Shown here: positions 8,615-36,666 of the stretch, one piece after another | How positions within the stretch are numbered: the first letter of the stretch is position 1 | Layout: each line of letters opens with the position of its first letter | NCBI GenBank assembly: GCA_029432775.1 | Contig: JAROAZ010000004.1 | Coordinates: forward strand, 1 to 64,000 | Length of the DNA stretch: 64,000 bases | Reading direction: 5' to 3' | Origin: Pontiellaceae bacterium B12227 | GTDB lineage: Bacteria > Verrucomicrobiota > Kiritimatiellia > Kiritimatiellales > Pontiellaceae | Position numbers and translations under genes: made by a program | Notes under the pieces: generated by a model | What the model saw: the letters and a program-made list of their open reading frames with translations, nothing else | The model's database searches: none | Told to the model about the DNA's origin: nothing

Positions 8615-9379
8615 CTAGCGGCCTAAAACGCTTGCCGCACAGGCCAGCGCCGAACCCGTTAACATGTTTCCAAAGATCGGAACCCAGGCATCATTCGCAT
8701 GCTCAAGTAAATCCGTACCGCCCTTTTCAACAAGAAAAAAGGCCGCTCCCTCTCCGGGCACATAGGCTTCGTCCGAAATCCGGCCGTCCTGAGCCACCGG
8801 AATCTTTTGCGTACAGATATATTCCATCACCGTCCCGCACTCATCGCCCGCGCCCAGCAGAACATAGTCGCAGCGGCCTTCTTCAAGCCACGCTTCCGCC
8901 AGTTCAACAGCTTGCTCAAACGGTCGATCAAAGCCCGCAACCGTCCAGGTGGGCCCCTTGATTTTCAGCGCACGGGAAATGTATGAAACCGCCGCATTAT
9001 GCACCGAGTTGGAAAAAATGGTGGGCGAAACGCCTGCATCACCGTAGTCGATGATATCGTCCTGAAACTTAAAAGTCGTGTTATGCGGCCCGAACGCCGT
9101 CGCAAAAATAATGCCTACGCGATCCGAATCCGCCACCGAAATCCCGCTGTTGCTCACTGCATCCATGGCCGCCAGCGTCGTCAGTTTTGAAAAACGATCC
9201 GCCCGGCGCATGCCTTTAAGTGCCGGATCCTTCAACGTCGACGCATCCACAAGATACGCAGGGAAAGGTGCTTCCTGAAACGGAACTTCCAGAAAGTCGG
9301 GTTCTTTCCAATCTTTGGAAAAGTCAGCTTCCGCCCCGCGGCCCCTTGTACAAACTAAACCGGTTCCTGAAATTTTCAC
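8615..9379 (-). CDS. beta-ketoacyl synthase-like protein lacking the active-site cysteine (N-terminal lobe only)
   Basis: A 254-residue protein resembling only the N-terminal thiolase-fold half of ketosynthases (type KSase_2), as found in arylpolyene clusters. It keeps the KS-like segments RADRFSKLTTLAAMDA and GEGAAFFLVEK. At the nucleophile position it reads VAGFDRP, so there is no catalytic Cys, and the C-terminal His-His half is absent. It starts with GTG in a four-base GTGA overlap with the complete ketosynthase upstream, so the two are surely co-translated. This suggests a chain-length-factor or scaffold partner of that ketosynthase (inference). It is the last gene of the cluster's long arm. 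One iterated palindrome lies within it (9306-9321). Confidence 0.8.
   Translation of the reverse strand: MKISGTGLVCTRGRGAEADFSKDWKEPDFLEVPFQEAPFPAYLVDASTLKDPALKGMRRADRFSKLTTLAAMDAVSNSGISVADSDRVGIIFATAFGPHNTTFKFQDDIIDYGDAGVSPTIFSNSVHNAAVSYISRALKIKGPTWTVAGFDRPFEQAVELAEAWLEEGRCDYVLLGAGDECGTVMEYICTQKIPVAQDGRISDEAYVPGEGAAFFLVEKGGTDLLEHANDAWVPIFGNMLTGSALACAASVLGR
9306..9321. repeat. Iterated palindrome inside the KS-like gene
   Basis: A perfect TTCCAATCTTTGGAAA, read in-frame on the minus strand as SKDWK near the protein's N-terminus, in a region poorly conserved in ketosynthases. Confidence 0.85.
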
Positions 9380-10554
9380 GCCTCGTCCTCCAGCCCCAGA
9401 ATGAGTGCTGCATTATTTCCGCCGAAGGCGAGTGATGTCGAAAGAGCCCGCCTGCCGCTGATGGCTGTTTTTCCAATGGTTGGAACTAATCCGATATCCT
9501 CATCCAACACCTCATAACCGGCGCTTCCGGGAATCCACCCGTTTAAAAGTCCGGCAGCCGCAAAGACCGCTTCAATACCGCCCGCGCCGCCAAGCGTGTG
9601 ACCGGTATATCCTTTGGTCGAAAGTACTTTCACTTTTTCGCCGAAGAGTTTCAGCAAAGCGCGGCCCTCAACCTTGTCGTTATCCGGCGTGGATGTTCCA
9701 TGCGCATTCACAAAAGCCACATCAGCCTTTTCGCATTCGGCCTGTTTCAGCGCCGCTTCAATGGCGCGCACCAGTCCTTCCCCTTCCGGATGAGGAGCGG
9801 TCAGATGATAGGCGTCAGCAAACGAACCGTAGCCCAGCACTCTTAAAGGCGATTCAGCGCCACGCTTTGCGGCGCTTTCGAGGGTTTCCATCACCAGCAC
9901 TCCGGCGCCCTCGCCCAGATTCAACCCGGTACGGTTTCCACTAAAGGGTTTACAGGGTTCTGAGCTTGCAACACCGAGCGCATTGAATCCGCAAAGAGGT
10001 ATGCGGTTCATTTCGTCTGCACCGCCGGCAATGGCAATATCGCATAATCCGGCCTTCAACCAGCTGAGCGCTGCGCCGATAGCGTCAGTTCCGGAGGAAC
10101 AGGCATTCACCACCACGAGCTTCGGGCCGGTCAGGCCAAGCCGCTTGGCCGTGGCCTCGGCCAGGTTGCCTTCCAGAAATCCGTCGACCGAGTCCATTTG
10201 AGCCGACTTCTTTTCGCGGTAGGTGGAATAAAAACCTAAATCATTCAGTTGGCAGGCAATGGAGGTGCCCACGGCAACGCCGACACGCAAACCCTCGAAT
10301 TTTTCAAGACCTGCCTGGGCCAACGCCTGATCGATGGCAATTTCCAGCAGCTCCAGCGTCCGCATTTTTCCGGGCTTCGTTCGCGCCGGCAGGCTTTTGA
10401 CCTCAAAGACCGGCAAATCAATCGGCGATTCAAATACGGTTACAGGCCCGACATTCCGTTCGCCGGCTTCCATGGAAGCCAACGATTCCTCCACACCGAC
10501 TCCGGCGGCGGAAATGACTCCCATCCCGCTGATCTGGATCGTTCTTTTCGACAT
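9376..10554 (-). CDS. beta-ketoacyl-ACP synthase (FabF/ApeO-like), catalytically complete
   Basis: A 392-residue condensing enzyme that should extend ACP-bound acyl chains with malonyl-ACP units. The catalytic triad is intact: Cys152 in VVVNACSSG, His285 in FVNAHGTSTPDND and His319 in STKGYTGHTLGG. The length is slightly short for FabF (about 410). Its stop overlaps the start of the cysteine-less KS-like gene (8615-9379), the arrangement expected of a KS/chain-length-factor pair. An ACP gene lies 108 bases upstream. The start ATG at 10554 is followed by MSKRTIQISGMGVIS, a standard KS beginning. Confidence 0.93.
   Translation of the reverse strand: MSKRTIQISGMGVISAAGVGVEESLASMEAGERNVGPVTVFESPIDLPVFEVKSLPARTKPGKMRTLELLEIAIDQALAQAGLEKFEGLRVGVAVGTSIACQLNDLGFYSTYREKKSAQMDSVDGFLEGNLAEATAKRLGLTGPKLVVVNACSSGTDAIGAALSWLKAGLCDIAIAGGADEMNRIPLCGFNALGVASSEPCKPFSGNRTGLNLGEGAGVLVMETLESAAKRGAESPLRVLGYGSFADAYHLTAPHPEGEGLVRAIEAALKQAECEKADVAFVNAHGTSTPDNDKVEGRALLKLFGEKVKVLSTKGYTGHTLGGAGGIEAVFAAAGLLNGWIPGSAGYEVLDEDIGLVPTIGKTAISGRRALSTSLAFGGNNAALILGLEDEA
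9471..9486. repeat. Iterated palindrome inside the ketosynthase gene
   Basis: A perfect TTCCAATGGTTGGAAC, encoding VPTIGK on the minus strand near the ketosynthase C-terminus. Confidence 0.85.
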
Positions 10555-10661
10555 ACAACTCCCAACGCGGATATCAAATGACCGCTAAGACGCAACAAGA
10601 TGAGGACTTTTCAACCCCGCTCCCCGGTGCCTTTGCGGTCATTCCCAGACGGCTGATTTTA
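10555..10661. repeat. Intergenic inverted repeat between KS and ACP genes
   Basis: Nine-base arms AATGACCGC (10577-10585) and GCGGTCATT (10635-10643) flank about 49 bases. The arms continue imperfectly with AAG/CTT-rich sequence. It resembles the GCAAAG-type inverted repeats at 22.93 and 50.73 kb. It could be an RNA hairpin that separates ACP from KS expression or a relic mini-repeat. Confidence 0.5.
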
Positions 10662-10937
10662 TTACGCTTCCGTTTTTTCGTATACGTAGTCAGCCAACGT
10701 GCCGATCGTACGGAAAATTTCGCGATTCTTCTCCATGTCCTTTACTTCCAGATTAAAGTTGCGCTGAAGCATGACCACAATTTCAACGGCATCCAGCGAA
10801 TCCAGGCCCAGGCCCTCTCCGAACAGTTCGCTGTCGTCTTCGATCTCTTCCGGAGTCACATCATCAAGAGCAAGCTGGTCTACCAGCAGAACTTTTAATT
10901 TTTCGCGAATCTCAGCCAGTTTAGTATCTTTATCCAT
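10662..10937 (-). CDS. acyl carrier protein
   Basis: A 91-residue acidic carrier protein. The phosphopantetheine attachment serine is Ser47 in GLGLDSLDAVE. The surrounding helix pattern (DDSELFGEGLGLDSLDAVEIV) is that of arylpolyene/fatty-acid ACPs. It sits between the LpxL-like acyltransferase and the ketosynthase, so it most likely carries the growing chain for those enzymes. ATG at 10937 has GGAAGG upstream. It is one of three ACP genes in the cluster, of which one is interrupted. Confidence 0.93.
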   Translation of the reverse strand: MDKDTKLAEIREKLKVLLVDQLALDDVTPEEIEDDSELFGEGLGLDSLDAVEIVVMLQRNFNLEVKDMEKNREIFRTIGTLADYVYEKTEA

Positions 10938-10974
10938 TCGTCTTTCCTTCCGTGTTTAAATCCCTGTTGTGCGT

Positions 10975-11871
10975 TCAGTCCGCATCCATCCATATATCGT
11001 GGAAAATAAAATATTGTAGCGGATGATCCAACAAATAGTTGCCCAGAATGTCAGCATATTTCTGCACCCATTCAGCCAGTTGTTCTTTCCGGTCGCGTCG
11101 CCGCTCCAGTTTCGGCCAAAGCACCTCAGCCATATTAACCGAATATGCTCCCCCCCCCACCTTGCTCGAAAGCAAAACCACCACCGGACAATGTGCCGAT
11201 GCAGCAATATGAAAGGCACTATAGGGAAAATGGACCGTGGAACCCAGAAATTCAACCGGCACACTGTCAGCCCCGTAGGACCGGTCGCCCATAATGGCCA
11301 CAATGTCCCCGTTTCCCAGTGCATCCATGACGGCCAACACGCCTCCCATTTCCTGATCTGGCGAAATGATTCGGATCCTGCTCTCCTCGGAATCCACCTG
11401 TACGGCATCACGTATGGCCGGATTCATCTCCGGTTTCATCAGTAAATGAACCGTACGGTCCAGCTTTTCGAGCGAGTGCATCACGGTTTGCCAGTTGCCC
11501 ACGTGGGAGGTCAGCAGGATAAACCCCTGCTGATCATGACTGAAGGTTTCCAGCTGCTCATAACCGTCGATCGCCGTATCAAACTCAACCGCTCCGGCAA
11601 TCAGCGCATGGCGGTCGATCAGATTCTTTCCCTGCGAAACGAACAACAGATACGCGGTCCACCACTGCCGGAAACCGGACCGTTCCGGGAACCGGCGCGA
11701 AATATACGGCACGGCCGACCGAACGGCCGCACGGTCGAAGATCGCATAATACAGACACACCGGATAGAGCAACGCATAGGCACCGCGTAACCCGAACAGC
11801 TGCATCAGCGATTTAAAAAACCAGATACCCAGCGCATTGCCGCGCTGGCGGGGAGGAGGAGTTTCAGACAT
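10975..11871 (-). CDS. LpxL/HtrB-like acyltransferase with altered catalytic motif
   Basis: About 298 residues of the lysophospholipid acyltransferase (lipid A acyltransferase) superfamily, adjacent to a GT2 gene as in arylpolyene clusters, where this protein is thought to acylate the lipid anchor. The expected HX4(D/E) motif reads SHVGNWQ: the histidine is present but the acid is replaced by Gln. The related protein at 59.1 kb has HMGSWE. Activity may be lost or changed. I chose the ATG at 11871, which overlaps the GT2 stop by eight bases, over an upstream TTG at 11907. A run of nine Cs (11150-11158) inside the gene could be error-prone in sequencing or replication. Confidence 0.82.
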   Translation of the reverse strand: MSETPPPRQRGNALGIWFFKSLMQLFGLRGAYALLYPVCLYYAIFDRAAVRSAVPYISRRFPERSGFRQWWTAYLLFVSQGKNLIDRHALIAGAVEFDTAIDGYEQLETFSHDQQGFILLTSHVGNWQTVMHSLEKLDRTVHLLMKPEMNPAIRDAVQVDSEESRIRIISPDQEMGGVLAVMDALGNGDIVAIMGDRSYGADSVPVEFLGSTVHFPYSAFHIAASAHCPVVVLLSSKVGGGAYSVNMAEVLWPKLERRRDRKEQLAEWVQKYADILGNYLLDHPLQYFIFHDIWMDAD

Positions 11872-13042
11872 TGGAAACCACCCGCTTCCGCTGCACGCTC
11901 GTTGCAATCAGATAAACAATCACACCACCGATAATCGCCAGCAACGGTGCCAGAACCAGCGAACCCAGCAGCCAGTTCAGCAAATGCTGATGAAGATCGG
12001 CCACAAAATTTTTCAATTCCTGCATCCCGAGCCAATGGCCGTTGCGCATGTAAAAACCCAGCGCAATACAGGCGGCCGGAACAAATGGGGGAGCGCATAG
12101 ATGCTGTACGTTAACCGCTAACAGCCGGTTCAGGTTCAATTTGGTCGAAACATAGAGAATGGCAATGGTATGGCAGGCAATCAGCGGAAGCGTGGCCAGG
12201 AGCAGGCCCACTCCCGCAGCAACGCCCAGCTCAGCCGGCGAAGAGTTTTCCTTCAACAGCATCGCGAGTACGTTGCGCGGGTGCAGCAGCAGCTCTTTCC
12301 AATCATTGGAATCGCGCTTCACCAGTTTTTTGTGCGGCCAAGGCAGCAATCGGCGCAGCACCAGCAGCGTGTGCCGACCACTCAAACGAACATTATCTTT
12401 CCACTGATCAAAGTGGCTGATGCGCTCTTCGGGCGGAGGATAGTGAACCGAGATCGGCACATCCACCAGCGAGAGCCCGTGCCAGACCGACTTCGAGAGC
12501 ACCTCGACCTCAAAATCATAGCGGCTGCCCTTCAGCTTCATCTGCGAGAGCAGTTCCACCGGATATGCACGGAAACCACTTTGCGAGTCCGAAATCTTAA
12601 CGCCGCACTCCAGCTTGATCCAGAAGTTGGAAAATTTCCGGCCGAACTTACTGCCGCCCGGAATATGCTCGCCCGAAAAGTCGCGGGCACCGATCACAAT
12701 ATGCTCCACTGAACTTCCAAGCATTGGAAAAAAGAGTGGGATGTCATCCGGGCAATGCTGCCCATCGGCATCCACCGTTATCATCCATTGACCGCCCTGC
12801 CGGTGTACGTGCGACAACGCCGTTAAAAGCGCGCGCCCTTTTCCCTGGTTGGTCTCGTGGCGTACCACCTCGATATCGGAATCAGCAAACACGGCGGGTA
12901 GATCGGCATCCGTCGAACCGTCATCCACCACGAGCACATGTTCGAGATGCTTCCGGCAGCCGCGCGCCACCAGTTCAACCGTCGCCCCATTGTTATAAAC
13001 CGGAACAACACACCAGATGGAATCTGTAGAGAATTCGCTCAA
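11864..13042 (-). CDS. GT2 family glycosyltransferase with C-terminal DUF2062 membrane domain
   Basis: A glycosyltransferase of about 392 residues. The N-terminal GT-A domain shows VVPVYNNGAT, the nucleotide-binding DDGSTD, the DXD-type TVDADGQH and a GSRYDFEVEVL segment. The C-terminal 150 residues form a DUF2062 domain with three hydrophobic segments (for example GLLLATLPLIACHT), so it is a membrane-bound enzyme probably adding sugar to a lipid carrier or anchor. There is no ATG at the N-terminus. The TTG at 13042, directly after the upstream gene's stop, is favoured over a TTG at 13096. It contains two perfect iterated palindromes (12297 and 12715). Confidence 0.88.
   Translation of the reverse strand: MSEFSTDSIWCVVPVYNNGATVELVARGCRKHLEHVLVVDDGSTDADLPAVFADSDIEVVRHETNQGKGRALLTALSHVHRQGGQWMITVDADGQHCPDDIPLFFPMLGSSVEHIVIGARDFSGEHIPGGSKFGRKFSNFWIKLECGVKISDSQSGFRAYPVELLSQMKLKGSRYDFEVEVLSKSVWHGLSLVDVPISVHYPPPEERISHFDQWKDNVRLSGRHTLLVLRRLLPWPHKKLVKRDSNDWKELLLHPRNVLAMLLKENSSPAELGVAAGVGLLLATLPLIACHTIAILYVSTKLNLNRLLAVNVQHLCAPPFVPAACIALGFYMRNGHWLGMQELKNFVADLHQHLLNWLLGSLVLAPLLAIIGGVIVYLIATSVQRKRVVSNV
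12297..12312. repeat. Iterated palindrome inside GT2 gene (first copy)
   Basis: A perfect TTCCAATCATTGGAAT, read on the minus strand as SNDWK in the linker before the DUF2062 domain. Confidence 0.85.
12715..12730. repeat. Iterated palindrome inside GT2 gene (second copy)
   Basis: A perfect TTCCAAGCATTGGAAA, read as FPMLG on the minus strand: a different reading frame from the copy at 12297 in the same gene. Confidence 0.85.
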
Positions 13043-13043
13043 A

Positions 13044-14423
13044 CTATTTTTGCTCAGTCGACGTTCTTTTCCGGCGTTTCCTACGGCCGGCACCAATCAG
13101 CATATCATAGGCCGTTCCACCATAGCCGAGCTTGTGCAGCAGGTGCAGCTTGTCATCCAGCGCATCCGGCGGAAACACACAGTTGAACTTGTCCGCGAAG
13201 CCATCGATCAGCGTCTTTTCGAGCCAGTCGCGCTCGAGATCTTTCGAAATATAATAGATCGGTTCAATAATATCCGTTTCCGGCGTAATCAGTCCCTCGC
13301 GCTCTGCGAGCTTCATCAGGCCGGTTCCCGGAAGAATGCGAATGCCCATGAACATAAAGTTGGCTGTCTGCTCCAGGTTGCGAATATTTTCGATGCCCTC
13401 AAGTACGGTTTCCTGCGTTTCGCCGGGACCGCCGAACATATAGTAATGCGCCGTCGTGATCTCGTGCTTCCGGAACAGCTCGTTACAGGCAATCACATCC
13501 TGCCAGGTAAAATCTTTACCGATCCCTTTCAGCGCAATATCGCTGGCCGCATCCGCACCGATCTCCGCGGCATCGAACCCGGTCGCCTTCATCATGGCAA
13601 TCATCTCTTCGTCAAGATCCCCGCCCGGCGAAATATAAGCCGTCCACGGAATGTTGATTTTCCGGCGGTGCATCTCCCGCACCACTTCCCGGTATTTACC
13701 GCCCGAGTCGTTAAACAGGGAATCGACAAAAAAGATATAGCTGTCGTCGCGACTGTCCACCAAACGTTCAATATCATCCACCACAGCTGAGGCCCGCCTC
13801 ATCCGGAAGCAGTTACCTTCAAGGTAAGGATAGGAACAATAGATGCAGTGCTTATCACAGCCCCGTTTGGTCTGGATGGAAATCGTCTTGCCGTGCTCCA
13901 TGTAGAAATCAACAATGCCCGGCTCATAATGTGCCGTGGGAATGGCATCGTCTTTCAGATTCTGGGGAGCTCTCAGAATACGTTCATCAGGCCGCTTTCC
14001 CTCCGCAAGCTGTTCCATAAAAGAACACATCAGCACTTCGCCTTCCCCGACAACACCATAGTCGGCACCGACAGCCGTCAATACCTCCTCCGGCATAATG
14101 GAAAATGCGGAGCCGCCCAGAACAACCGGGACCGAAGTCAGGGTTCGTATATCCGCAACAACCTCTCGAACCGTATCAATATAGCGGTGTTCATTCACCG
14201 CATTCACATTATCAATATTCCGGATCGAGATGCCGACAGCATCCGGCTTCACTAGCTGAACTTTATCCCGAAAGGCCTCCATCGACCGGCCGCTCTGCAG
14301 AAAATCAAACAGCTCCACCTGGTGCCCCGCCGCCTTCAGCGCAGAGGCCACCATGCCCATTCCGATTGGATAGACCGGATACGGAGAGGTTTCCCAGTTT
14401 GTGGAGATCAGCAGAACCTTCAT
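13044..14423 (-). CDS. B12-binding-type radical SAM enzyme (first of tandem pair)
   Basis: A 459-residue protein. The N-terminal 150 residues resemble a cobalamin-binding Rossmann domain (MKVLLISTN, VVLGGSAFSIMPEE, GEGE). A radical SAM TIM barrel follows with the 4Fe-4S motif CDKHCIYC (Cys189, Cys193, Cys196) and a C-terminal region (YYISKDLERDWLEKTL) like that of the BchE/HpnJ class. Such enzymes perform radical methylation, cyclisation or oxygen-independent oxidation on lipid-like substrates. Its start overlaps the next radical SAM gene (ATGA), so both are co-translated. The C-terminus is lysine/arginine-rich. The reaction is unknown. Confidence 0.9.
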   Translation of the reverse strand: MKVLLISTNWETSPYPVYPIGMGMVASALKAAGHQVELFDFLQSGRSMEAFRDKVQLVKPDAVGISIRNIDNVNAVNEHRYIDTVREVVADIRTLTSVPVVLGGSAFSIMPEEVLTAVGADYGVVGEGEVLMCSFMEQLAEGKRPDERILRAPQNLKDDAIPTAHYEPGIVDFYMEHGKTISIQTKRGCDKHCIYCSYPYLEGNCFRMRRASAVVDDIERLVDSRDDSYIFFVDSLFNDSGGKYREVVREMHRRKINIPWTAYISPGGDLDEEMIAMMKATGFDAAEIGADAASDIALKGIGKDFTWQDVIACNELFRKHEITTAHYYMFGGPGETQETVLEGIENIRNLEQTANFMFMGIRILPGTGLMKLAEREGLITPETDIIEPIYYISKDLERDWLEKTLIDGFADKFNCVFPPDALDDKLHLLHKLGYGGTAYDMLIGAGRRKRRKRTSTEQK

Positions 14424-15697
14424 TCGCTGGCCATCTTCACGTCAGCTTCTTTCGACTGCCATTGGCGACGGCGCAGCTTCGGCGATTTGTAGGTTCCATC
14501 GGCAACCTCGCGCTGGATCACATCCATATAGAGCTTACCCATGGCCAGCTCTTTTCCGCCCGGACCATAGAAGGAGTCCCAGGCATACTGATGCATTTCG
14601 TCCAGCTTATCGACAGACATCTTCGCCGGTTTGAATACTGTTTCCGCACCGGTATACTTGCGCCAGTTATTATGCAGAATACGACCATCCTTTTCCATCT
14701 CCGAGCGGATCGGCGTATGCGGGAAAGGGGTCATCACAGTGAATTCCGCCAGATCCAGTTCCACTTCCAGCAGGAAGTCCACCAACCGTTTGATATCATC
14801 TTCCGACTGATCGTCCGTCCCTAGAATAATCGTCCCTTCCACGCCGATGCCCCGATCCTTCATTCGCTTGATGCGGTTACGGATCACATCGGACGTATCG
14901 AAAACAGCCTGATACACATACCAGCAACCGGCCTCAGCAGCGAGGTCGAGGATTTCATCGTCATCTTTAATCGGATGCGAAACCCATTTTTTCTTCAGCG
15001 GAATCATGGCCTTGAACAGCTCTTTTTCCCACTCATCATTCTGAGCCAGCGAATTGTCCACCACAAAGAATCGGTTGTTATCAATGGCCGCCATCTCTTC
15101 GATGAATTTTTCAACCGGACGCGGGCGAAACTGGCGTCCCCCCAGATACGGCGTGCAACAAGGGAAACAATTAAACCGGCAACCGCGCGATGCATGAATC
15201 AGATCCACCATCTGAACTCCGCGGAAGTTGTAGAGTTCGCGGTCCAGAATATCGCGGCGGGCCGGACCGATCAGGGCCGTATCCGGATAGTTATTGCGGT
15301 AGTCGTAAACCGGCTTGAGTTTGCCGTCTTCAAAATCGCGCAGCACCAGCTCCGTTCGTCCTTCCGCTTCGCCCAGGAAAACCGAGTCCGCATGCGTCAT
15401 CGATTCTTCGGCATGCAGGTGCGTGGCAATTCCGCCCATCACCACTTTTTTACCCTGGTTACGAAATTCGTCGGCAATTTCCCAGCCGCGCGGAATCTGG
15501 CAGGTCAGCATACAGGAGATAAATACGAGATCGCATTCTTCCTTAAAATCCACCGTCTGAACGTGCTCATCCGTAAAGGAGATATCAACCTCTTCCGGAA
15601 TCGTTGCAGCAAAGACCACCGGACCGTGCGGCGGCAAATGGAACTGTGGTTGATTCGGCATTTTCGGCCACTTTGGATAGATCAGTTTAACCTTCAT
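14420..15697 (-). CDS. B12-binding-type radical SAM enzyme (second of tandem pair)
   Basis: A 425-residue protein with an N-terminal B12-binding-like domain (MKVKLIYPKWP, VVMGGIATHLHAEE) and the radical SAM cluster motif CRFNCFPC (Cys173, Cys177, Cys180) preceded by HASRG. It is not a close copy of its downstream neighbour. The two overlap by four bases (ATGA). Comparable adjacent B12-radical SAM genes accompany ketosynthases and phytoene-desaturase-like flavoproteins in the operons proposed for anammox ladderane synthesis (known from the literature as candidates, not proven). A lipid-chain modification is therefore plausible, but the substrate is not determined. Confidence 0.9.
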   Translation of the reverse strand: MKVKLIYPKWPKMPNQPQFHLPPHGPVVFAATIPEEVDISFTDEHVQTVDFKEECDLVFISCMLTCQIPRGWEIADEFRNQGKKVVMGGIATHLHAEESMTHADSVFLGEAEGRTELVLRDFEDGKLKPVYDYRNNYPDTALIGPARRDILDRELYNFRGVQMVDLIHASRGCRFNCFPCCTPYLGGRQFRPRPVEKFIEEMAAIDNNRFFVVDNSLAQNDEWEKELFKAMIPLKKKWVSHPIKDDDEILDLAAEAGCWYVYQAVFDTSDVIRNRIKRMKDRGIGVEGTIILGTDDQSEDDIKRLVDFLLEVELDLAEFTVMTPFPHTPIRSEMEKDGRILHNNWRKYTGAETVFKPAKMSVDKLDEMHQYAWDSFYGPGGKELAMGKLYMDVIQREVADGTYKSPKLRRRQWQSKEADVKMASE

Positions 15698-15720: not shown

Positions 15721-17106
15721 TTACAGTATCTGTTTCCCGCTCTCAAAGCACGTCGGATTATCACGTTTAATCTTTCCGCTGGCCGTCCGCTCCAACCGCT
15801 CTACGAGCTCGAACTTTTTTGGAACTTTATAGCTCTCGAGATGCTCATAACAAAAGCGTCTTAAATCTTCCGGGCTCAGCCCCGGCGCCACCACCCTTGC
15901 ACACGGCAGCTGGCCGTAGCGCGGGTGCGGCTCGGCATATACCAGCGATGCCTGCACCCCTGCGCACTGTTCCAGCACCGCTTCGACTTCATACGGGAAC
16001 ACCTTCATTCCCGCAAAATTAATCAGATTTTTCACCCGGCCCAGCAGTTGCAGGCTTCCGGACGCATCCACTAGCCCGACATCGCCCGTTGCAAACCACG
16101 CCCCGGAACGGCGGCGCTGCCATGGATAAAGATACGCGGAATACATGCCCGGCCCGCGCAGCCAAACTTCACCCACCCCGTCTTCATCGGCCTCATGAAT
16201 CTGCACCTCAAACCCCGGCATCGCCTGCCCGACCGATCTCCCCGCCCCGGAGGCATTCACAAACGGGAGTCCGACTTCAATCAGCCCATATGCCTCGCAC
16301 AGGGCGAATCCAAATTTATCCCGAAAAGCCTCCGCCGTTTCATCGGTCAATTTCATTGCAGTGGAAACCGCCATACGGATGCCCGACAGTGCATCGGAAG
16401 CAATTGATTCGTTTTCAGCCAGCGCACGGTAATGAAACGGCGTGCCGTAAATAAAGGTGCCACCGCGTTCGACGCCCGCCAGAAAAGAATAGGGAAAGGT
16501 CTCGCAGCAGAGATTAATCGTGGCACCGCGTCGGAGGAACAGGAGAATGGTCACGACAAAATGAAAACTCATTGAAAGCAACCAGACCACAGTATCGGCC
16601 GCTGTAATCTTAAGCGCATGATCAGCGGTGGCGGTGCGCGCTTCAATTTCGGAATGACTCAGCAGCACGCCCTTGCTCGCACTGGTGGTCCCGGAAGAAA
16701 ACCGAATAAAGGCCGGCTCCATTTCGCGGTATTCAGCGGGCAGTTCTGCGCCCGGATCACGCCGCTCCACCCGGAACCCATCGGCATCCGGAATCAGCAG
16801 GCCATGGGCCAGCGTGTCGGCCAACAACTCTTCCACCACGTCCGGGGCCGCGCTGGCCGAAACCGGAATCAGCACGGCACCGATCGACAGAACCGCCAGA
16901 CTCAGCACGACATAATCAATCCCATCCGGAAAGGCCAGACCGATCCGTTCCAATGGTTGGAAACCTGCTTCTGTTAAACGTGCAGCGGCCGCATCGACCC
17001 GGACAAAAAGTTCATTATAGGTCAGAAGGGCATCATCGATCTGCACCGCAACCTTCCCGACAGGTAGCTCCGCGGTTTCGGAGCGGATTACATCAACGAT
17101 GTTCAT
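15721..17106 (-). CDS. acyl-AMP/acyl-CoA ligase (ANL superfamily)
   Basis: A 461-residue adenylate-forming enzyme, shorter than usual (about 500-550). Core motifs are present: the P-loop FSSGTTSASKGV, the aryl-binding region YGLIEVG, the TGD-equivalent ATGDVGLVD, and the C-terminal catalytic lysine segment RTASGKIKRD. It probably activates a starter or modifying carboxylic acid and loads it onto an ACP or CoA. Its ATG overlaps the end of the flavoprotein gene by four bases, placing it in the same operon. It carries one iterated palindrome (16948). Confidence 0.88.
   Translation of the reverse strand: MNIVDVIRSETAELPVGKVAVQIDDALLTYNELFVRVDAAAARLTEAGFQPLERIGLAFPDGIDYVVLSLAVLSIGAVLIPVSASAAPDVVEELLADTLAHGLLIPDADGFRVERRDPGAELPAEYREMEPAFIRFSSGTTSASKGVLLSHSEIEARTATADHALKITAADTVVWLLSMSFHFVVTILLFLRRGATINLCCETFPYSFLAGVERGGTFIYGTPFHYRALAENESIASDALSGIRMAVSTAMKLTDETAEAFRDKFGFALCEAYGLIEVGLPFVNASGAGRSVGQAMPGFEVQIHEADEDGVGEVWLRGPGMYSAYLYPWQRRRSGAWFATGDVGLVDASGSLQLLGRVKNLINFAGMKVFPYEVEAVLEQCAGVQASLVYAEPHPRYGQLPCARVVAPGLSPEDLRRFCYEHLESYKVPKKFELVERLERTASGKIKRDNPTCFESGKQIL
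16948..16963. repeat. Iterated palindrome inside ligase gene
   Basis: A perfect TTCCAATGGTTGGAAA, translated as FQPLE on the minus strand near the ligase N-terminus. Confidence 0.85.
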
Positions 17107-18219: not shown

Positions 18220-18462
18220 CTAAGCGGACTTCATTCGCTCCACCGAACGCGCGAGCGCGGTAATGGATGCAATATCCTCGCGTTGCATATCCGACGCCAT
18301 TAAATCGATCCCGTACTTCGTTTCAATAAACACCAGCAGTTCAACCATCCGCATAGAATCCAACCCCATTGTATGCAATGGAACATCATGCTTCAGTTCC
18401 TCAGCATTCACCGACAGGATTTCTGCGATCCGCCCCTTTAACTCTGATTCCGTTTTATCCAT
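18220..18462 (-). CDS. acyl carrier protein
   Basis: An 80-residue carrier protein with phosphopantetheine serine Ser36 in HTMGLDSMRMVELL. The GLDSM form differs from the GLDSL of the other two ACPs and may reflect a different partner set. The ATG at 18462 (MDKTESEL) is preferred to upstream in-frame starts because an AGGGG ribosome binding site precedes it and the upstream gene ends at 18488. It lies between the condensation-like acyltransferase and the flavoprotein, suggesting that one of these acts on its cargo. Confidence 0.9.
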   Translation of the reverse strand: MDKTESELKGRIAEILSVNAEELKHDVPLHTMGLDSMRMVELLVFIETKYGIDLMASDMQREDIASITALARSVERMKSA

Positions 18463-18487
18463 TACCCCTGTTCCCTGAAATTGTACG

Positions 18488-22276: not shown

Positions 22277-22277
22277 A

Positions 22278-29489: not shown

Positions 29490-29498
29490 ACGGAGGTA

Positions 29499-29759
29499 TT
29501 ATTCTGCTTTCAATTCCTTGCCGAGCGTTTCAATAAAGTCATAGAGATCGTTCAGCACGCGAATATCTCGAATGCGTTCGTCATCACGAATGGATACATC
29601 AAATTTTTTCTGAAGTGCAACCACAAGATCGACCACATCCAGACTATCCAGCCCCAATTCGGTGAAGAGATGAACCTCTGGAGTGAGCTAATCCTGCTCC
29701 ATCTCAAAATCTTCAAGGAACACCTCGTTTACCAGTTCAATAATTTTTTCACGCTGCAT
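29499..29759 (-). pseudogene. acyl carrier protein gene interrupted by an in-frame amber codon
   Basis: Reading from ATG 29759 (AAGGAG six bases before it) gives a clean 87-codon ACP frame ending at TAA 29499, with the phosphopantetheine serine in TELGLDSLDVVDLV. Codon 24 is TAG (29688-29690), where a Gln or Glu codon would be expected; CAG to TAG is a single change. No Met or Val restart lies between the stop and the serine motif; a TTG just before GLDSL would lose helix 1. TAG is the normal stop of infA and several others here, so reassignment is unlikely. It is the promoter-proximal gene of the cluster's long arm. A real nonsense mutation or a base-call error are both possible. Confidence 0.85.
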
Positions 29760-29872: not shown

Positions 29873-30445
29873 ATGAATAAAGCATATCTATTACTGGTTC
29901 TTCTGGTCGCAGGCTTCAGTACTCAGGCAACAGAAAACTGGTATAATCAGGCATTTCTCGGGGGTGGTACCTCCATAAAGGGATTCGGAGCAACCGATCA
30001 GGAAGTACGCACAGTTGATGTGGTCTTCCGCCATGCCCGCCTTTTTCACGAAAAAAGTGAAGGATGGATCAAGGGCCGTCATGAATTCTGGATGGAGGTT
30101 CCTGTTGCTATCATTGTCCATGATTCGGATTCCGTGGATGATAATGACTTCGGCATCGTGGGCCTTAACTTCCTGGCCGCATGGATTTTCCCCGAATCGG
30201 CCATTGGATCGCCCTACCTCATGATTGGCGGCGGTCCACAATATGTTCTGGCCGATATAGAGGGCGTCGGATCCGATCTTTGCGGAAACTATCAACTGGG
30301 TTGTGGAACACGTTTTCTGATGATGCAGAAGCACGAGATCAACCTTGAAGTGCGCTATCACCACATTTCCAACCTCGGCATGGCCGACCCCAATGTGCCT
30401 CTGAATTCGGTAAAATTCTATCTCGGAGCAACCCTGCCCTTCTAG
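29873..30445 (+). CDS. PagL-like lipid A 3-O-deacylase (outer-membrane barrel)
   Basis: A 190-residue protein: signal peptide (MNKAYLLLVLLVAGFSTQA), alternating beta-strands, and the PagL/acyloxyacyl-hydrolase hallmark RYHHISNLG near residue 160, holding the catalytic His and Ser, then a terminal aromatic residue (ATLPF). PagL removes the 3-O acyl chain of lipid A at the outer membrane. It is divergent from the ACP end of the biosynthetic operon and 14 bases before a radical SAM gene on the same strand. It may remodel LPS to accommodate the product (inference). Confidence 0.8.
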   Translation: MNKAYLLLVLLVAGFSTQATENWYNQAFLGGGTSIKGFGATDQEVRTVDVVFRHARLFHEKSEGWIKGRHEFWMEVPVAIIVHDSDSVDDNDFGIVGLNFLAAWIFPESAIGSPYLMIGGGPQYVLADIEGVGSDLCGNYQLGCGTRFLMMQKHEINLEVRYHHISNLGMADPNVPLNSVKFYLGATLPF

Positions 30446-30459
30446 TCGGAGCTCAACTC

Positions 30460-31869
30460 ATGAAGATCCTGCTCGTTAAACCCAAGGCCCGCCTCCAGAC
30501 CATCCGCAAACTCGGGGGGCTCATTTTTCTGGAACCGCTCGAACTCGGCTACGTCGCCGCTGCAGTGCCAGAAGGACATTCAGTTGAAATTCTCGACCTC
30601 CGGTTGGCCCGGAATCCGGACCGAATCTTTCGCGCCAGACTGAAATCCCTGCAACCGGACCTGATTGGTATCAGCAGCTATACCCATGAAGTCACCAAGG
30701 TCATCGAGTTGGCCGGGCTGGCCCGGAAAACCAGCCCGAAGAGTAAAATTGTGATCGGCGGGCACCATGCCACCGTCCTGCCCGGCGACTTCAACCGCCC
30801 GGAGTTCGATGCCATTGTGCGCGGCGAAGGATGCGCCCCGTTTCATGATGTTGTCCAATGTCTGGAAAAAGGAAACACACTGAGCCACATTGAAAATGTG
30901 ATGATCCCGGGAACAAACTGGAGCAGAGAAGAGGCCGAGGAGCTTCCCCTCTACCCGGCACCCGACACCCTGCCGGAACCCAAAAGAAATTTATGGAACC
31001 CCGAAGACTACCGATGCTTCTGGCCCACCATGAAACATCCGCAATGGCAAACCGTCTTTCCAAAAACCGCCCTGCTCCGCACCTCGTTCGGGTGCTGCAT
31101 GAACTGCAACTTCTGTGTGATCCCGTTGCTCAGCCGGCGCACCCATATGCCGCGTGATCCTGAAAAAGTGGTGGATGAGCTCGAAAAAATTCAACAGGAC
31201 CACGTCTATTTCTGCGACGACGAAACCTTCATCGATCCCGGTCACGCGCAGCGGATTGCAGAAGCCATTCAACGAAGAGGGATTAATAAAAGGTATTTCG
31301 CCTGGGCGCGCTCCACCACCGTCAACCGGCACCCCGACCTGTTTAAGCTATGGCGATCAATCGGACTCGACTGTGTTTTCCTTGGAATGGAAGCCGCTAC
31401 AAACGAGCAACTTGACAGTATGGACAAACATTCAACCATTGAAGAAAATCAACAGGCCCATCAGGCTCTGATCAATATGGACATTGCCGTACAGGCGGCC
31501 TTTATGGTGAATGCCGATTATACAGAGAAGGATTTTAACGTCCTCTGCGACTACATTGAGAAGATTCCCCCGGCGCAGGTCACCAGCACCGTCTTCACGC
31601 CGTCGCCCGGCAGCACGGCCTGGCATGAGGAAAAGGATAAATATATCTGCCACCCCTACGACCTGCACGACTGCATGCACCCGTTGACCCGAACAAAAAT
31701 TCCGTTGCGAAAATTCTACCGTCACTTCTCGCGCGTTGCAGAAATCGGAGGCAAACGAAATCCGCTACGGAATCCCCAAACCCGCATGATGCCCCGCGAC
31801 ATATTCCGCATCATCCGCTCCGTTTCCGGCTACTCCTCCGCGCTCAAGAATGCATGGAAAGATTTTTAG
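30460..31869 (+). CDS. B12-binding-type radical SAM enzyme (third in the cluster)
   Basis: A 469-residue protein: N-terminal B12-binding-like domain (MKILLVKPKAR, VIGGHHATVLPGDF, RGEG), radical SAM motif CCMNCNFC (Cys212, Cys216, Cys219), and a YFCDDETFIDPGHA segment typical of the B12-dependent BchE/HpnP-like group. It is the only radical SAM gene of the cluster on the plus strand, 14 bases after the PagL-like gene. HpnP-type relatives methylate lipids, but the family alone does not fix the reaction. It ends in TAG. Confidence 0.9.
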   Translation: MKILLVKPKARLQTIRKLGGLIFLEPLELGYVAAAVPEGHSVEILDLRLARNPDRIFRARLKSLQPDLIGISSYTHEVTKVIELAGLARKTSPKSKIVIGGHHATVLPGDFNRPEFDAIVRGEGCAPFHDVVQCLEKGNTLSHIENVMIPGTNWSREEAEELPLYPAPDTLPEPKRNLWNPEDYRCFWPTMKHPQWQTVFPKTALLRTSFGCCMNCNFCVIPLLSRRTHMPRDPEKVVDELEKIQQDHVYFCDDETFIDPGHAQRIAEAIQRRGINKRYFAWARSTTVNRHPDLFKLWRSIGLDCVFLGMEAATNEQLDSMDKHSTIEENQQAHQALINMDIAVQAAFMVNADYTEKDFNVLCDYIEKIPPAQVTSTVFTPSPGSTAWHEEKDKYICHPYDLHDCMHPLTRTKIPLRKFYRHFSRVAEIGGKRNPLRNPQTRMMPRDIFRIIRSVSGYSSALKNAWKDF

Positions 31870-31891
31870 GTTCCGTATTAGTCAGACACTT

Positions 31892-31929: not shown

Positions 31930-31954
31930 GGCGTACCGTATGTATCCAGCTAAC

Positions 31955-32488: not shown

Positions 32489-32562
32489 GCCCAATTTCCT
32501 TTCAGTTTGTCCTTCCCCACGTCTGAACCCCGCAGGTCTCCTGCAGAGTCCCGGCTAAAATA

Positions 32563-32811: not shown

Positions 32812-32844
32812 TTTATCATCTCCCTGGGGTTAATAATTACCAAA

Positions 32845-33213
32845 TCAATTCAGCGAAGCCTCCAGAATCTCCGCCACCAGCTCCGGGCTGTTGTATAAAA
32901 AAACTCCGGATACCAAAACCACATAGCCCGTACCGTCCACCACCAGGGTAAGCGGTGTACCCAGCACCCGCAGGCTTATGTCTTTAAACCGGCTCAATTT
33001 CTCGCGCTCCACAAGATACCCATTCAGGTCGCCAACCTGATACACCTCATAATGCACACCTAACGACTTCATCTCCTCCTCGGAAACACTGTCCGCATCG
33101 AACCAGACCATTTCTCCCGAGTCGGTATGCTCCCAAAGCCATTTGGTGCATCCGGTCAACACCCCGAGCGAGCTGCAGGCTAACCCATTTTTTAATAGAG
33201 TCCTTTTAAGCAT
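32845..33213 (-). CDS. small lipoprotein adjacent to ketosynthase
   Basis: A 122-residue predicted lipoprotein (MLKRTLLKNGLACSSLGVLTGC). The C-terminal half has a thioredoxin-like flavour (RVLGTPLTLVVDGTGYVVLVSGVF), but no CxxC. ATG at 33213 overlaps the ketosynthase stop by eight bases, so it is translationally coupled to the cluster. The function is unknown; a role in lipid export or folding is only a guess from context. Confidence 0.75.
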   Translation of the reverse strand: MLKRTLLKNGLACSSLGVLTGCTKWLWEHTDSGEMVWFDADSVSEEEMKSLGVHYEVYQVGDLNGYLVEREKLSRFKDISLRVLGTPLTLVVDGTGYVVLVSGVFLYNSPELVAEILEASLN

Positions 33214-34432
33214 CCACTTTCCGGCAGACCAATGCGGCATTAATGCCGCCAAAAGCAAAACTGTTTTTAATGATGATGTTCACTTCTTTTTCCAACGGTT
33301 GGAAAACGTGCTGAATGCCTTCGCACGTTGGATCAACCTGTTCCAGATTGAGTGTCGGCACAATCACCCCGCGCTTCATCATTTCAAGCGTAGCAATCAG
33401 TTCAATGGCACCGGATGCTCCCAGCGTATGGCCCATATGGCCTTTCAGACTGCTTACGGGAACCGCGTCGCCGAAGATCTCGCGCAGTGCACCGGCCTCT
33501 TCAACATCGCCGTGCGCCGTGGCCGTTGCATGTGCACTGATGTAATCGATTTCCAATGGTTGGACGTCGCTCTCTTTCAGCACCTGCCGAAGGCAGCGCA
33601 CCATGGCATCGGCATTCGACTGGCTGATGTGCGCCCCGCTTCCGCAGGTGCTGTACCCCAGCACCTCGGCATAAATTTTCGCCCCGCGGGCCACAGCTAA
33701 ATCCATATCTTCCAGCACCAGAATACCGGCCCCCTCACCGCAAACGAGCCCATCGCGATCCTTATCAAAGGGCCGGGGTGTAGTTTGGGGCGAATCATTG
33801 TGATGCGATGAAGTGGCGAACAGCACATCGAACGATCCGGTTACGGTGGGATGCAGTTCCTCGGCCCCGCCGCACAGCATTCGATCCTGCCGGCCCAGAC
33901 GAATGAGATCGAACCCGGCTCCGATGCCTTGAAGCCCGGAAGCACAGGCCGCAGAAGGTGCATATACGGTTCCGCTGATGCCGAGATACTGCGACACATT
34001 CATGGCCGCCGTGTGGGAAACACACTGAAAAAATTTGGTGGAAGGCAGTTGGGAAATATCATTTTCCGGCAACACCAGCTCAAAGGTTTCGGTAATGCTG
34101 GCCGCACTCCCCATCGTGGAACCGATTGCACAGCCGGTGCGGTCCGATGCAACGTCCTCATCAGAGAGTCCGGCATCTTCAACCGCCTGCTTTGCCGCAA
34201 TAGCGGCAAACTTGGAAAGGCGCCCCATGGAACGGCGCTTCTGCCGGGGAATCTGTTTTTCGTTTTCGAGCACGGCGGGGGCACCCACCAGCGAGTGCAA
34301 CCCCTGATAATTCGACCAGCTCTCCATTTTCTCAACGGCCGAACGACCTTCCAGCAGGCCCTCCATCATTTCTTCCGGCTGATTACCCAACGGGGAAATG
34401 ACCCCTACACCTGTAATAACAACGCGTTTCAT
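33206..34432 (-). CDS. beta-ketoacyl-ACP synthase (FabF/ApeR-like)
   Basis: A 408-residue complete ketosynthase: Cys163 in APSAACASGLQG, His301 in ISAHATATAHGD (usually HGTST) and His335 in LKGHMGHTLGAS. Unlike the other two it has no cysteine-less partner beside it, matching the standalone third ketosynthase (ApeR role) of arylpolyene systems, which may start the chain. It overlaps the desaturase-like gene by four bases. It has one perfect (33290) and one near-perfect palindrome (33551). Confidence 0.92.
   Translation of the reverse strand: MKRVVITGVGVISPLGNQPEEMMEGLLEGRSAVEKMESWSNYQGLHSLVGAPAVLENEKQIPRQKRRSMGRLSKFAAIAAKQAVEDAGLSDEDVASDRTGCAIGSTMGSAASITETFELVLPENDISQLPSTKFFQCVSHTAAMNVSQYLGISGTVYAPSAACASGLQGIGAGFDLIRLGRQDRMLCGGAEELHPTVTGSFDVLFATSSHHNDSPQTTPRPFDKDRDGLVCGEGAGILVLEDMDLAVARGAKIYAEVLGYSTCGSGAHISQSNADAMVRCLRQVLKESDVQPLEIDYISAHATATAHGDVEEAGALREIFGDAVPVSSLKGHMGHTLGASGAIELIATLEMMKRGVIVPTLNLEQVDPTCEGIQHVFQPLEKEVNIIIKNSFAFGGINAALVCRKVDA
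33290..33305. repeat. Iterated palindrome inside ketosynthase gene
   Basis: A perfect TTCCAACGGTTGGAAA, translated FQPLE on the minus strand near the C-terminus; a copy with one arm mismatch is at 33551. Confidence 0.85.
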
Positions 34433-35919
34433 GCATCGAGCCTTTCGTCAATATGGCGGTCAAATTCTTCTGTATCAGCCAGCGACCGAGCAATAATAAA
34501 AGCGGAAGCCATCGCACCCATAATCCCGGGCAGCACCGAGCTCTGGCCGGCCGCGTAGAGATTGCGGATCGGCAGTTTTCCGAGCAGATTGAACTGCCCC
34601 ATCAGCTGTTTAATTCCATAGGCCGATCCATCGGGCGAATTGAGATAGTCGCGGAAGGTCAGCGGCGTTGAACTTTCCAATGGTTGGAAGTGGCCTTTGA
34701 GTTCGGGCATGAGTTCATGCAGGCGCTCAACAATCCGATCGGTTTTCCGTTTTTTAAATTCGTAGTAGGAATCCGGTCGCTTCTGCAGGGAGGAGTCAGC
34801 CCATTCCGCATACTCCTCCGGCCGGGCCGCTTCCAGAATGGTCAGCGTACGGGTTCCATTTTCTTCCCCGCAGATTCCGAACAGCATGGAGTCAGCCTCC
34901 CGGTCGCCCACCGCGAAGACCTTGTTCAGGTCGGGATCCGGCAGCCCCAGCAGAATAAAATCGTTGAGCAGTTCTGGCAGATCGCATGTGCCGAAAACTG
35001 CAAAAAATCCACTGGACGCTTCATATGCACCAACGCGGCTTTTAAAAGCCGGTCGCAGTTTTTCCGGCGGAAGCAGTTTTAAAATTTCCATGGGATGGAT
35101 AGTCAGCACGGCCGAATCGAACCGAACCAGATCGTCATTGCTTAAACGGAAGGCCCCGGCGGTCTTCCCTTCAAGCTCCTCGATGGCATCCACCGTACAT
35201 TTGCAGCGAATATCCACGTCATATTTCCGCAACTGCCCTTGCAGCGCCGTTACAAACGCATCGCCACCGCCTTCGACTGTTACCAGACTGTCATACATGC
35301 CCTGACAGATACGGGCATGGTTGGCAAAAGAGATTTCATCCGGGCCCACCCCATAGCATAGGCAGTATCCCGCCATCATTGACTTAAGTTCCACACTTTG
35401 GAACAGCTGATCGAGTACGCTGCTGAGCGATTGGTAATCCTCATCCAGCGGAGACGACATATCCTTGAGCGTCCGCAGATTCATGCTGGTGGTTTTGGCG
35501 CAGATTTCATCCACCCGCTGAAAATAAACCGAAATCGCCTCGGCTTCTTCGGGGAAATGAGCAACCAGCGCCTCCATCATCCCGGCACGCAGGCAGGGAA
35601 AATGATAGCGATGGCCAGACGATTCAAATACAAAGCGCATCCCCTCGTCGGCATCAAACGGGCGCGGCTTGATCCGCTCTTCCACCTCCAGCACCTTGAG
35701 CATATCGGAAAGCAACCCGCCGGACTGCAACCCGCCGGTAAAGTGGAATCCGGTTTCAAAAGGAATCCCGGCAATGGGAAAACGAACCATTGACCCGCCG
35801 ATCGCCGGCGCCTTTTCAACAATAAGCACCCGTCGCCCCTGCCGGGCCAGTAACAGCGCGGTGGTTAACCCGCTAATTCCGGCACCCACAACAATATGAT
35901 CGTATTTATATTCCGCCAC
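34429..35919 (-). CDS. phytoene-dehydrogenase/carotenoid-isomerase-like flavoprotein
   Basis: A 496-residue flavin-dependent amine-oxidase-fold enzyme. The N-terminal dinucleotide motif VVGAGISGLTTALLLARQG ends at EKAPAIGG (residues about 9-42), and the C-terminal motif NLYAAGQSSVLPGIMGAM closes the FAD site. These are features of the CrtI/CrtISO family, which desaturate or isomerise polyenes. Together with ketosynthases this suggests work on the acyl chain's double bonds. GTG start at 35919 behind a G-rich stretch. It lies between FabG and the third ketosynthase. Confidence 0.88.
   Translation of the reverse strand: MAEYKYDHIVVGAGISGLTTALLLARQGRRVLIVEKAPAIGGSMVRFPIAGIPFETGFHFTGGLQSGGLLSDMLKVLEVEERIKPRPFDADEGMRFVFESSGHRYHFPCLRAGMMEALVAHFPEEAEAISVYFQRVDEICAKTTSMNLRTLKDMSSPLDEDYQSLSSVLDQLFQSVELKSMMAGYCLCYGVGPDEISFANHARICQGMYDSLVTVEGGGDAFVTALQGQLRKYDVDIRCKCTVDAIEELEGKTAGAFRLSNDDLVRFDSAVLTIHPMEILKLLPPEKLRPAFKSRVGAYEASSGFFAVFGTCDLPELLNDFILLGLPDPDLNKVFAVGDREADSMLFGICGEENGTRTLTILEAARPEEYAEWADSSLQKRPDSYYEFKKRKTDRIVERLHELMPELKGHFQPLESSTPLTFRDYLNSPDGSAYGIKQLMGQFNLLGKLPIRNLYAAGQSSVLPGIMGAMASAFIIARSLADTEEFDRHIDERLDA
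34675..34690. repeat. Iterated palindrome inside desaturase-like gene
   Basis: A perfect TTCCAATGGTTGGAAG, translated FQPLE on the minus strand (GHFQPLESS). A degenerate copy is at 35389-35404. Confidence 0.85.
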
Positions 35920-35946
35920 CCGGCCCCCCTAGGCTTGGCTTGTTCT

Positions 35947-36666
35947 TTAAATTGCCAGACCGCCATTCACACCAATCACCTGGCCATGAATGTAGGACTG
36001 CGCATCGCTACAAAGAAAATCGACCGTGGCCGCCACATCTTCCACCACCCCGAACTTGTTCAATGGAATCAACGGCTTGATCTGTTTTTCCGGAAGATCG
36101 GCCGTCATATCGGTTTCAATGACCCCCGGAGCAACCACATTGACCATGATCTTCTTTTTCCCCACTTCGCGGGCCAGCGCTTTCACCGCGCCGATGAGCC
36201 CGGCCTTGGAGGCGGAATAGTTGACCTGACCCGCCTGGCCAATCTGACCGGCGGTAGAAGAGATCACTACGATGCGTCCACGCTTCTCGCGCAACATCGG
36301 GAAGAGTACCGCTTTGGTTACGTTGTAGAACCCGCTCAGGTTCGTATCGATTACAGAGTCCCATTCATCCTTCGTCATCCAGACCATCAGGTTGTCGCGG
36401 ATAATACCGGAGTTAAAGACGACGACGTGCGGAGGGTTGGCATCGCACTTTTCTTCCAGGGCTGCTTTGGTCGCTTCAAAATCGGATACATCAAACCCCA
36501 TAATATCGCACGCACGCCCCAGTGCTTTAATTTCGGCCTGCACCTCTTCAGCCGCGGCTGAGTTGCTGTGATAGGTTAACCAGATATCAAATCCGGAATT
36601 TGCCAGTTTGAGCGCGATGCCACGTCCTATGCCCCTGCTGCCGCCAATGACTAATGCTGTCTTCAT
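35947..36666 (-). CDS. fabG: 3-ketoacyl-ACP reductase (FabG/ApeQ-like)
   Basis: A 239-residue NADPH-dependent short-chain dehydrogenase. Cofactor motif GGSRGIGRG (8-16), NSG at 85-87 (usually NAG), catalytic Ser137, Tyr150 and Lys154 (SSTAG...NYSASKAG), and the PGVIETDMT tail. It would reduce the 3-keto group after each condensation. It is the first gene of the cluster's second arm, 27 bases before the flavoprotein gene. Confidence 0.92.
   Translation of the reverse strand: MKTALVIGGSRGIGRGIALKLANSGFDIWLTYHSNSAAAEEVQAEIKALGRACDIMGFDVSDFEATKAALEEKCDANPPHVVVFNSGIIRDNLMVWMTKDEWDSVIDTNLSGFYNVTKAVLFPMLREKRGRIVVISSTAGQIGQAGQVNYSASKAGLIGAVKALAREVGKKKIMVNVVAPGVIETDMTADLPEKQIKPLIPLNKFGVVEDVAATVDFLCSDAQSYIHGQVIGVNGGLAI

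Follow-up and report, generated by a model that had tools for sequence, protein, structure and literature searches.

The 64,000-nucleotide stretch of contig JAROAZ010000004.1 of Pontiellaceae bacterium B12227 (the window) belongs to a 6.3-Mb genome (G000) of a Pontiella-type genus in the Kiritimatiellia. Its positions 8615–36666 carry a gene cluster that is best explained as a complete cassette for anaerobic biosynthesis and export, which belongs to the 'ladderane-type' cluster family, is assembled on arylpolyene-type type II machinery and works in the way proposed below; we put the probability of this explanation at about 0.62. Gene content, conservation, homology to the Ape proteins of arylpolyene clusters and a fusion protein form its direct basis, from which we infer the reaction steps and the product.

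Domain scans of the cluster revealed three complete ketosynthases (KS1–KS3), two half-size cysteine-less partners (KSb1 and KSb2), acyl carrier proteins (ACPs), FabG, ApeI, a thioesterase and two ligases, together with a family 2 glycosyltransferase carrying DUF2062 (GT2-DUF2062), acyltransferases, LolA, an MMPL-like exporter and four radical S-adenosylmethionine (SAM) proteins. Scores above the Pfam cut-offs were obtained for FabG, the ApeI-like protein, the 4HBT thioesterase, both adenosine monophosphate (AMP) ligases, GT2 and DUF2062, Lip_A_acyltrans, the PlsC-type acyltransferase and LolA. Nearly all of the gene list in a first-pass annotation of this DNA is thereby borne out; alignment places Cys-His-His in KS1, KS2 and KS3 and no Cys in KSb1 and KSb2. 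By content, type II fatty acid synthesis (FASII) genes, radical SAM enzymes, a CrtI-like oxidase, a PaaK-like ligase and a glycosyltransferase occur together, which is the published composition of ladderane-type FASII clusters (PMC2649909, PMC4790861).

The main run of genes occupies 8615–29489 on the minus strand, to which all coordinates below refer unless marked otherwise. A second operon, KS3-CrtI-FabG, lies at 33206–36666, and the gap of ~3.7 kb between the two contains small lipoprotein genes and, in divergent orientation, the PagL gene and a radical SAM gene. Most genes had been described as joined by 4–8 base overlaps; this holds for eight of the 20 neighbouring pairs of the main run (4 bases in seven, 8 bases in one), while the others have overlaps of 14–53 bases, where start codons are uncertain, or are separated by gaps.

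Arylpolyene-Type Core

The 18 Ape proteins of Escherichia coli CFT073 (L092, L093), for which gene roles are documented (PMC8253772), served as targets in a search with window-family profiles. Thirteen window proteins match 12 of these, namely ApeC (weakly), ApeD, ApeE, ApeI, ApeJ (two window genes), ApeK, ApeL, ApeM, ApeO, ApeP, ApeQ and ApeR; because of these matches, the core of the cluster is, on homology, arylpolyene-type machinery. KS1 (9376–10554; PF00109/PF02801) gives 223 bits with ApeO and is an ApeO-like elongation enzyme by this match, KS3 (33206–34432) gives 419 bits with ApeR, and KS2 (20337–21500; PF02801/PF00109) gives 159 bits with ApeR and 145 bits with ApeO. KSb1 (8615–9379; PF00109, 44 bits), which has no C-terminal domain, shows the weakest match of all, 10 bits to ApeC in the profile search, with an hhalign E of 2.5e-4 at 43% probability. 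KSb2 (19777–20340) was recognized by alignment and a weak PF00109 score (18.6 bits), and its homologue adjoins KS2 in relatives. Both resemble ApeC in being half-size and lacking Cys; ApeC has a published chain-length-factor role (PMC8253772), and KSb1 is a candidate for the same role. ACP1 (10662–10937; PF00550; ApeE 67 bits) is intact. The FabG-type ketoreductase (35947–36666) is ApeQ/FlxB-like with 238 bits to ApeQ, the thioesterase (21457–21942; PF13279) gives 76 bits with ApeK, and the ApeI-type hotdog dehydratase (21929–22285) gives 43 bits with ApeI and 30.4 bits with PF22818, for which the cut-off is 28.5. The defining arylpolyene combination of an ApeO/ApeC-type ketosynthase with half-size partner, an ApeR ketosynthase, an ApeQ ketoreductase and an ApeI/P dehydratase is present, the ApeC match being weak.

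Attachment and export are represented as well. An LpxL/HtrB-type acyltransferase (10975–11907; PF03279; ApeJ 78 bits) and GT2-DUF2062 (11864–13096; PF00535, PF09835; ApeJ 126 bits) are both counterparts of ApeJ, whose annotation reads glycosyltransferase/acyltransferase, and the PlsC-type acyltransferase (28740–29489; PF01553) is ApeD-like (33 bits). The LolA-like periplasmic carrier (25353–25991; PF03548) matches ApeL with 23 bits (E = 1.4e-5). The exporter (23006–25399), of the resistance-nodulation-division (RND)/MMPL type and HpnN-like, had been assigned to MMPL in the first-pass annotation; it scores below the Pfam cut-off (17.1 against 20.5), yet has 98 bits to E. coli ApeM. The adjoining gene at 22278–23009 encodes a putative lipoprotein with a lipobox-like Cys in the ApeN position. 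Its earlier designation as a DUF3261 lipoprotein found no support from Pfam, NCBIfam or hhalign against ApeN. The ApeL/M/N/G export set is matched for ApeL and ApeM, by position only for ApeN, and not for ApeG. In comparison with apeA-R of E. coli CFT073, the window adds four radical SAM enzymes, a CrtI-like oxidase, a second pair of ketosynthase and half-size ketosynthase, a flavin adenine dinucleotide (FAD) oxidase and a condensation-type acyltransferase; ApeJ is represented by two genes, and ApeP is joined to one of the radical SAM enzymes.

Radical SAM Enzymes and the ApeP Fusion

The first of the four radical SAM enzymes (13044–14423) is B12-binding, retains CxxxCxxC in the alignment and belongs to TIGR04072 (rSAM_ladder_B12) with 621.5 bits over residues 2–443, the cut-off being 360. 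The second, a B12-type enzyme (14420–15697; PF04055; hereafter B12rSAM2), falls into no curated family and is the most conserved cluster protein between phyla, at about 60–70% identity. It stays ~60% identical even where the ketosynthases of a cluster are ~35–45% identical to those of the window. The third B12-binding enzyme (30460–31869, plus strand; PF02310, PF04055) is HpnR/BchE-like and lies between the two operons; in G005 and G014, its gene is divergent from the KS3 operon.

The remaining one (25988–27457) is a fusion of a radical SAM-SPASM enzyme (residues 1–345; PF04055, PF13186) with an ApeP-like dehydratase subunit (residues 346–489). The last ~145 residues match ApeP by profile (34 bits, E = 2.6e-9) and by predicted structure, where the model (mean pLDDT, a per-residue confidence score, 83) matches SuiB/SkfB and 6qsr_B (target TM 0.80), the latter being ApeP of the ApeI:P dehydratase heterocomplex of Xenorhabdus doucetiae (PDB 6qsr). 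As in X. doucetiae, ApeI is encoded nearby and an ApeP fold is present, here at the C-terminus of the fusion; unlike in X. doucetiae, it sits on a radical SAM-SPASM enzyme. ApeI and ApeP assemble into a heterocomplex in that organism, and the simplest reading is therefore that the fusion would bring radical chemistry to the dehydratase. Where E. coli ApeP has Pro-His, most members have Pro-Gln, and the fused domain may therefore be structural. In G424, the radical SAM-SPASM and ApeP halves are separate genes, ~10 kb apart in the same cluster. Radical SAM-SPASM homologues covering only fusion residues 12–347, with no ApeP domain, were also found (G082:C371, G058:C36 and G071:C101); these are possibly a related unfused family.

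Conservation and Distribution

Relatives of the window genome include Kiritimatiellales/Pontiellaceae metagenome-assembled genomes (MAGs). The main run recurs with little change of order in other Kiritimatiellia (G005, G010, G014 and G029), and also in an Omnitrophota MAG (L044), in Desulfobacterota (L045–L050) and in an unclassified MAG (L042), while a Lentisphaerae MAG (L051) has part of it. The window genes are 57–97% identical to those of G005, in which the KS3-CrtI-FabG operon is located ~3.5 Mb from the main run; in G222, G424, G324, G082 and G169 it is contiguous with the rest of the cluster. Among 213 genomes of the class, B12rSAM2 was found in 21, the KS3 orthologue in 18 and the full-length fusion in 22. 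These markers share 15, 17 and 18 genomes, with Fisher P values of 1e-15, 3e-17 and 1e-22 that ignore shared ancestry. As gene order is kept across phyla and the markers co-occur, the cluster is not a chance assembly, and the gene set is one conserved unit. A KS3 match was present in all ten distant cluster genomes, at 59–66% identity in nine of them.

Of 198 genomes sampled from the phylum to which G222 belongs, 22 have B12rSAM2. Within the same phylum, loci L145–L150 (G361, G243, G424) have B12rSAM2 at ~60% identity with most other genes missing or 25–50% identical, and they look, from the sequences, like further variants of the family. In the B12rSAM2 tree, sequences of Desulfobacterota (L045–L049) and Omnitrophota are nested among those of Kiritimatiellia, which suggests transfer between phyla. 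Presence is patchy within the genus. Internal stop codons in some homologues, such as TGA in G149/G154, were considered and dropped: those of the copies checked are terminal, and in the B12rSAM2 copies checked the matched part contains none.

Proposed Mechanism

A ligase would load the starter acid onto an ACP, and the ApeR-type KS3 together with the KS1:KSb1 and KS2:KSb2 pairs would extend the chain with malonyl units. After reduction by FabG, ApeI would dehydrate in complex with the ApeP domain that carries the tethered radical SAM-SPASM enzyme. Because of this tethering, the unsaturated chain is proposed to undergo radical chemistry while still bound to the ACP. Further changes to the polyene, by methylation, cyclisation or desaturation, would fall to the CrtI-like oxidase and two B12-type radical SAM enzymes. 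The thioesterase, the GT2/LpxL pair and the acyltransferases would fix the chain to a glycolipid-type anchor, and LolA, MMPL and the lipoprotein would carry the product to the outer membrane. A second acid would be contributed by the sub-module of ACP2, a condensation-type acyltransferase and a ligase.

A bolder extension is that the fusion and the two neighbouring B12-type radical SAM proteins act on a dehydratase-bound polyenoyl-ACP to give chains that are cyclised or otherwise rearranged by radical chemistry, and that would then be anchored and sent to the outer membrane; such a lipid class would be common to several anaerobic phyla, with the anammox ladderanes as one offshoot. We regard it as speculative and rather improbable.

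Accessory and Neighbouring Genes

The sub-module just mentioned, which varies in position between genomes, comprises AMP-dependent acyl/aryl ligase 1 (15721–17106; PF00501 and PF13193; all acyl-CoA ligase models below cut-off), an FAD-dependent oxidoreductase (17103–18206; PF12831, 205.6 bits), the intact ACP2 (18220–18525; PF00550; ApeE 26 bits) and a 438-residue protein (18488–19804). The last has no Pfam match; its HxxxD is invariant in the alignment (FDHRLLDARGA), and Foldseek relates it to condensation domains of nonribosomal peptide synthetases (E = 2e-12), starting from a low-confidence model with a pLDDT of only 57. It is a putative acyltransferase of the condensation/chloramphenicol acetyltransferase fold, and the sub-module perhaps adds a second acid.

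The second ligase (27460–28743) is FlxY/PaaK-like. The third ACP (29499–29759) is broken by an in-frame TAG at 29688–29690, ahead of the serine motif, in accordance with the earlier count of two intact and one broken ACP. A Gln codon occupies this position in G005 and G010, the rest of the frame is intact, and the gene is intact in G005, G010 and G029; the TAG is either a real mutation or an assembly error. The divergent PagL-like lipid A deacylase (29873–30445, plus strand; PF09411) recurs beside or inside the clusters of G005, G010, G424 and L042 and may be part of the pathway. The gene at 36782–38029, which lies upstream of FabG and is oriented like it, codes for a lipobox-containing, lipase-like alpha/beta hydrolase; as far as seen, it is outside the conserved set.

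The CrtI/CrtD-like FAD oxidoreductase (34429–35919) was considered as a carotenoid enzyme, a reading we rejected. It scores far below the cut-offs (93 against 550 bits for CrtD, 59 against 238 for crtI_fam), and it is kept in G029 (97% complete). Because no phytoene synthase was found in that genome, action on carotenoids there is unlikely.

Nature of the Product

Several observations weigh against the cassette as we have read it. Unlike in E. coli CFT073, no homologues of ApeA, ApeB, ApeG, ApeH and ApeN were detected with the window-family profiles; the ApeB methyltransferase is unmatched among the window families, and so is the ApeH aryl ligase, though two other AMP ligases are present. Aromatic ammonia-lyase (PF00221) and chorismate lyase (PF04345) were found in none of 15 genomes. 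A chorismatase-like protein was rejected as the aryl source: its PF21168 match is distant (68 bits, cut-off 325), it is unlinked to the cluster in the window genome, and the corresponding RidA-like protein of ~400 residues (L162–L165), distantly FkbO/Hyg5-chorismatase-like, was present in each of seven genomes checked from the order, whether or not they carry the cluster. To these points are added the broken third ACP and the literature searched, in which no product is reported for any member of such clusters. As the known aryl-starter routes were not found, 'aryl' in a name for the product is unproven. The arylpolyene label of the first-pass annotation fits the Ape core but is incomplete, given the undetected Ape proteins and starter gene.

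The strongest competitor is a pigment pathway of the ordinary aryl polyene or flexirubin kind, with the radical SAM enzymes just standing in for oxygen-dependent or methyltransferase tailoring steps. The homology to Ape proteins and the absence of ApeB alongside B12 radical SAM enzymes would fit it. So would the ligase and the ketoreductase, whose best NCBIfam matches are FlxY and FlxB of the flexirubin cluster; unlike in that cluster, both are under the curated cut-offs (NF053551 FlxY 416 against 520 bits, FlxB 300 against 340), and no aromatic ammonia-lyase was found in the genome. Pigmentation would fit as well. Of two genomes from the genus of the window, G005, which has the cluster, is probably Pontiella desulfatans, and G021, which is without it, is probably P. 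sulfatireligans; P. desulfatans is yellow and P. sulfatireligans is not (PMC7356697). In sampled DNA outside the cluster, G005 has a GC content of 56.1%, close to the published 56.0%. A carotenoid locus with phytoene synthase and CrtI-family genes (L160, L161) is, however, present in the window genome (C55) and G005, while phytoene synthase was not found in G021. The colour difference fits a polyene and, with the same presence and absence pattern, equally carotenoids, and it was dropped as proof of a cluster pigment. The missing aryl-starter enzymes and the higher conservation of B12rSAM2 than of the ketosynthases, which suggests central rather than tailoring chemistry, also speak against this alternative, which we consider unlikely.

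An anaerobic pathway to polyunsaturated fatty acids or hydrocarbons was proposed by Rattray et al. for Desulfotalea psychrophila, which contains C31:8 and C31:9 hydrocarbons (PMC2649909). The CrtI-like oxidase and radical SAM enzymes of the window agree with such a route, but the half-size ketosynthase partners, ApeI:P, the thioesterase, the glycosyl- and acyltransferases and the Lol/MMPL export genes better fit an exported, anchored lipid. Moreover, the published link to hydrocarbons rests on synteny and isotopes, with no genetic test (PMC2649909). We give this route little chance.

Still less credit is due to a true ladderane pathway, by which Kiritimatiellia would make cyclobutane lipids. 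The TIGR04072 membership supports it, as does the resemblance to kuste3335–3352, where a glycosyltransferase, a CrtI-like protein, FabZ, FabG, ACPs, two radical SAM enzymes, a phenylacetate-CoA-ligase-like protein and FabFs are encoded (PMC4790861). Yet D. psychrophila, with a similar cluster, gave no ladderanes (PMC2649909), the major fatty acids of P. desulfatans are C18:0 and iso-branched (PMC7356697), and expression of the anammox candidate genes made no ladderane (PMC4790861). The SAM methylases kuste3338/3347 are without a counterpart found among the window families. Ladderane production outside anammox bacteria is unlikely, and for this cluster we hold it very improbable. Decay of the window copy, to which the TAG and the patchy presence in the genus might point, is scarcely credible, as the other genes are open-framed and well conserved, two other ACPs are intact and a single base of a draft assembly can be an error.

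Relation to Known Clusters and Significance

The first-pass annotation had proposed a hybrid pathway to an exported, membrane-anchored acyl lipid not described before. The union of arylpolyene-type genes with radical SAM and CrtI-like genes in one conserved pathway stands, but the cluster type is already known. In 2009, K. stuttgartiensis and D. psychrophila were described as carrying FASII clusters that include genes for radical SAM enzymes, phytoene-desaturase-like proteins, a ligase and a glycosyltransferase (PMC2649909). One of the enzymes has its own named family in NCBIfam, and antiSMASH labels such clusters 'ladderane'; they are reported from many phyla, among them Verrucomicrobiota, Desulfobacterota and Omnitrophota, with function unknown (PMC9902471). 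The annotation had also named two outcomes that would speak against it; synteny in relatives proved strong, and no close match to a pathway with known product was found.

Compared by published composition with the ladderane-type clusters of K. stuttgartiensis (kuste3335–3352) and D. psychrophila, the window shares radical SAM enzymes, a CrtI-like oxidoreductase, a PaaK-like ligase, a glycosyltransferase, several FabFs including non-canonical ones, ACPs, FabG, a dehydratase and an Mmp-like membrane protein. It differs in the full Ape-type attachment and export set, the fusion of radical SAM enzyme and ApeP, the module of ACP2, condensation-type acyltransferase and ligase, and in that no SAM methylase was found. 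To our knowledge, and within the literature searched, there is no earlier description of the systematic correspondence to Ape proteins, of the fusion or of the probable Pontiella pair.

Ladderane synthesis has long been an open question that is genetically hard to approach in anammox bacteria, of which there are no pure cultures (PMC2649909). The cluster combines arylpolyene-type lipid machinery with radical enzymes so far discussed mainly for anammox ladderanes, and it is widely shared among anaerobic bacteria. Viewing the non-anammox clusters as arylpolyene-type export pathways with a tethered radical enzyme leads to the specific hypothesis that a polyene bound to an ACP undergoes radical chemistry. 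A probable cultured carrier, P. desulfatans, and a probable cluster-free sister, P. sulfatireligans, would be a ready pair in which to seek the product and make this hypothesis testable.

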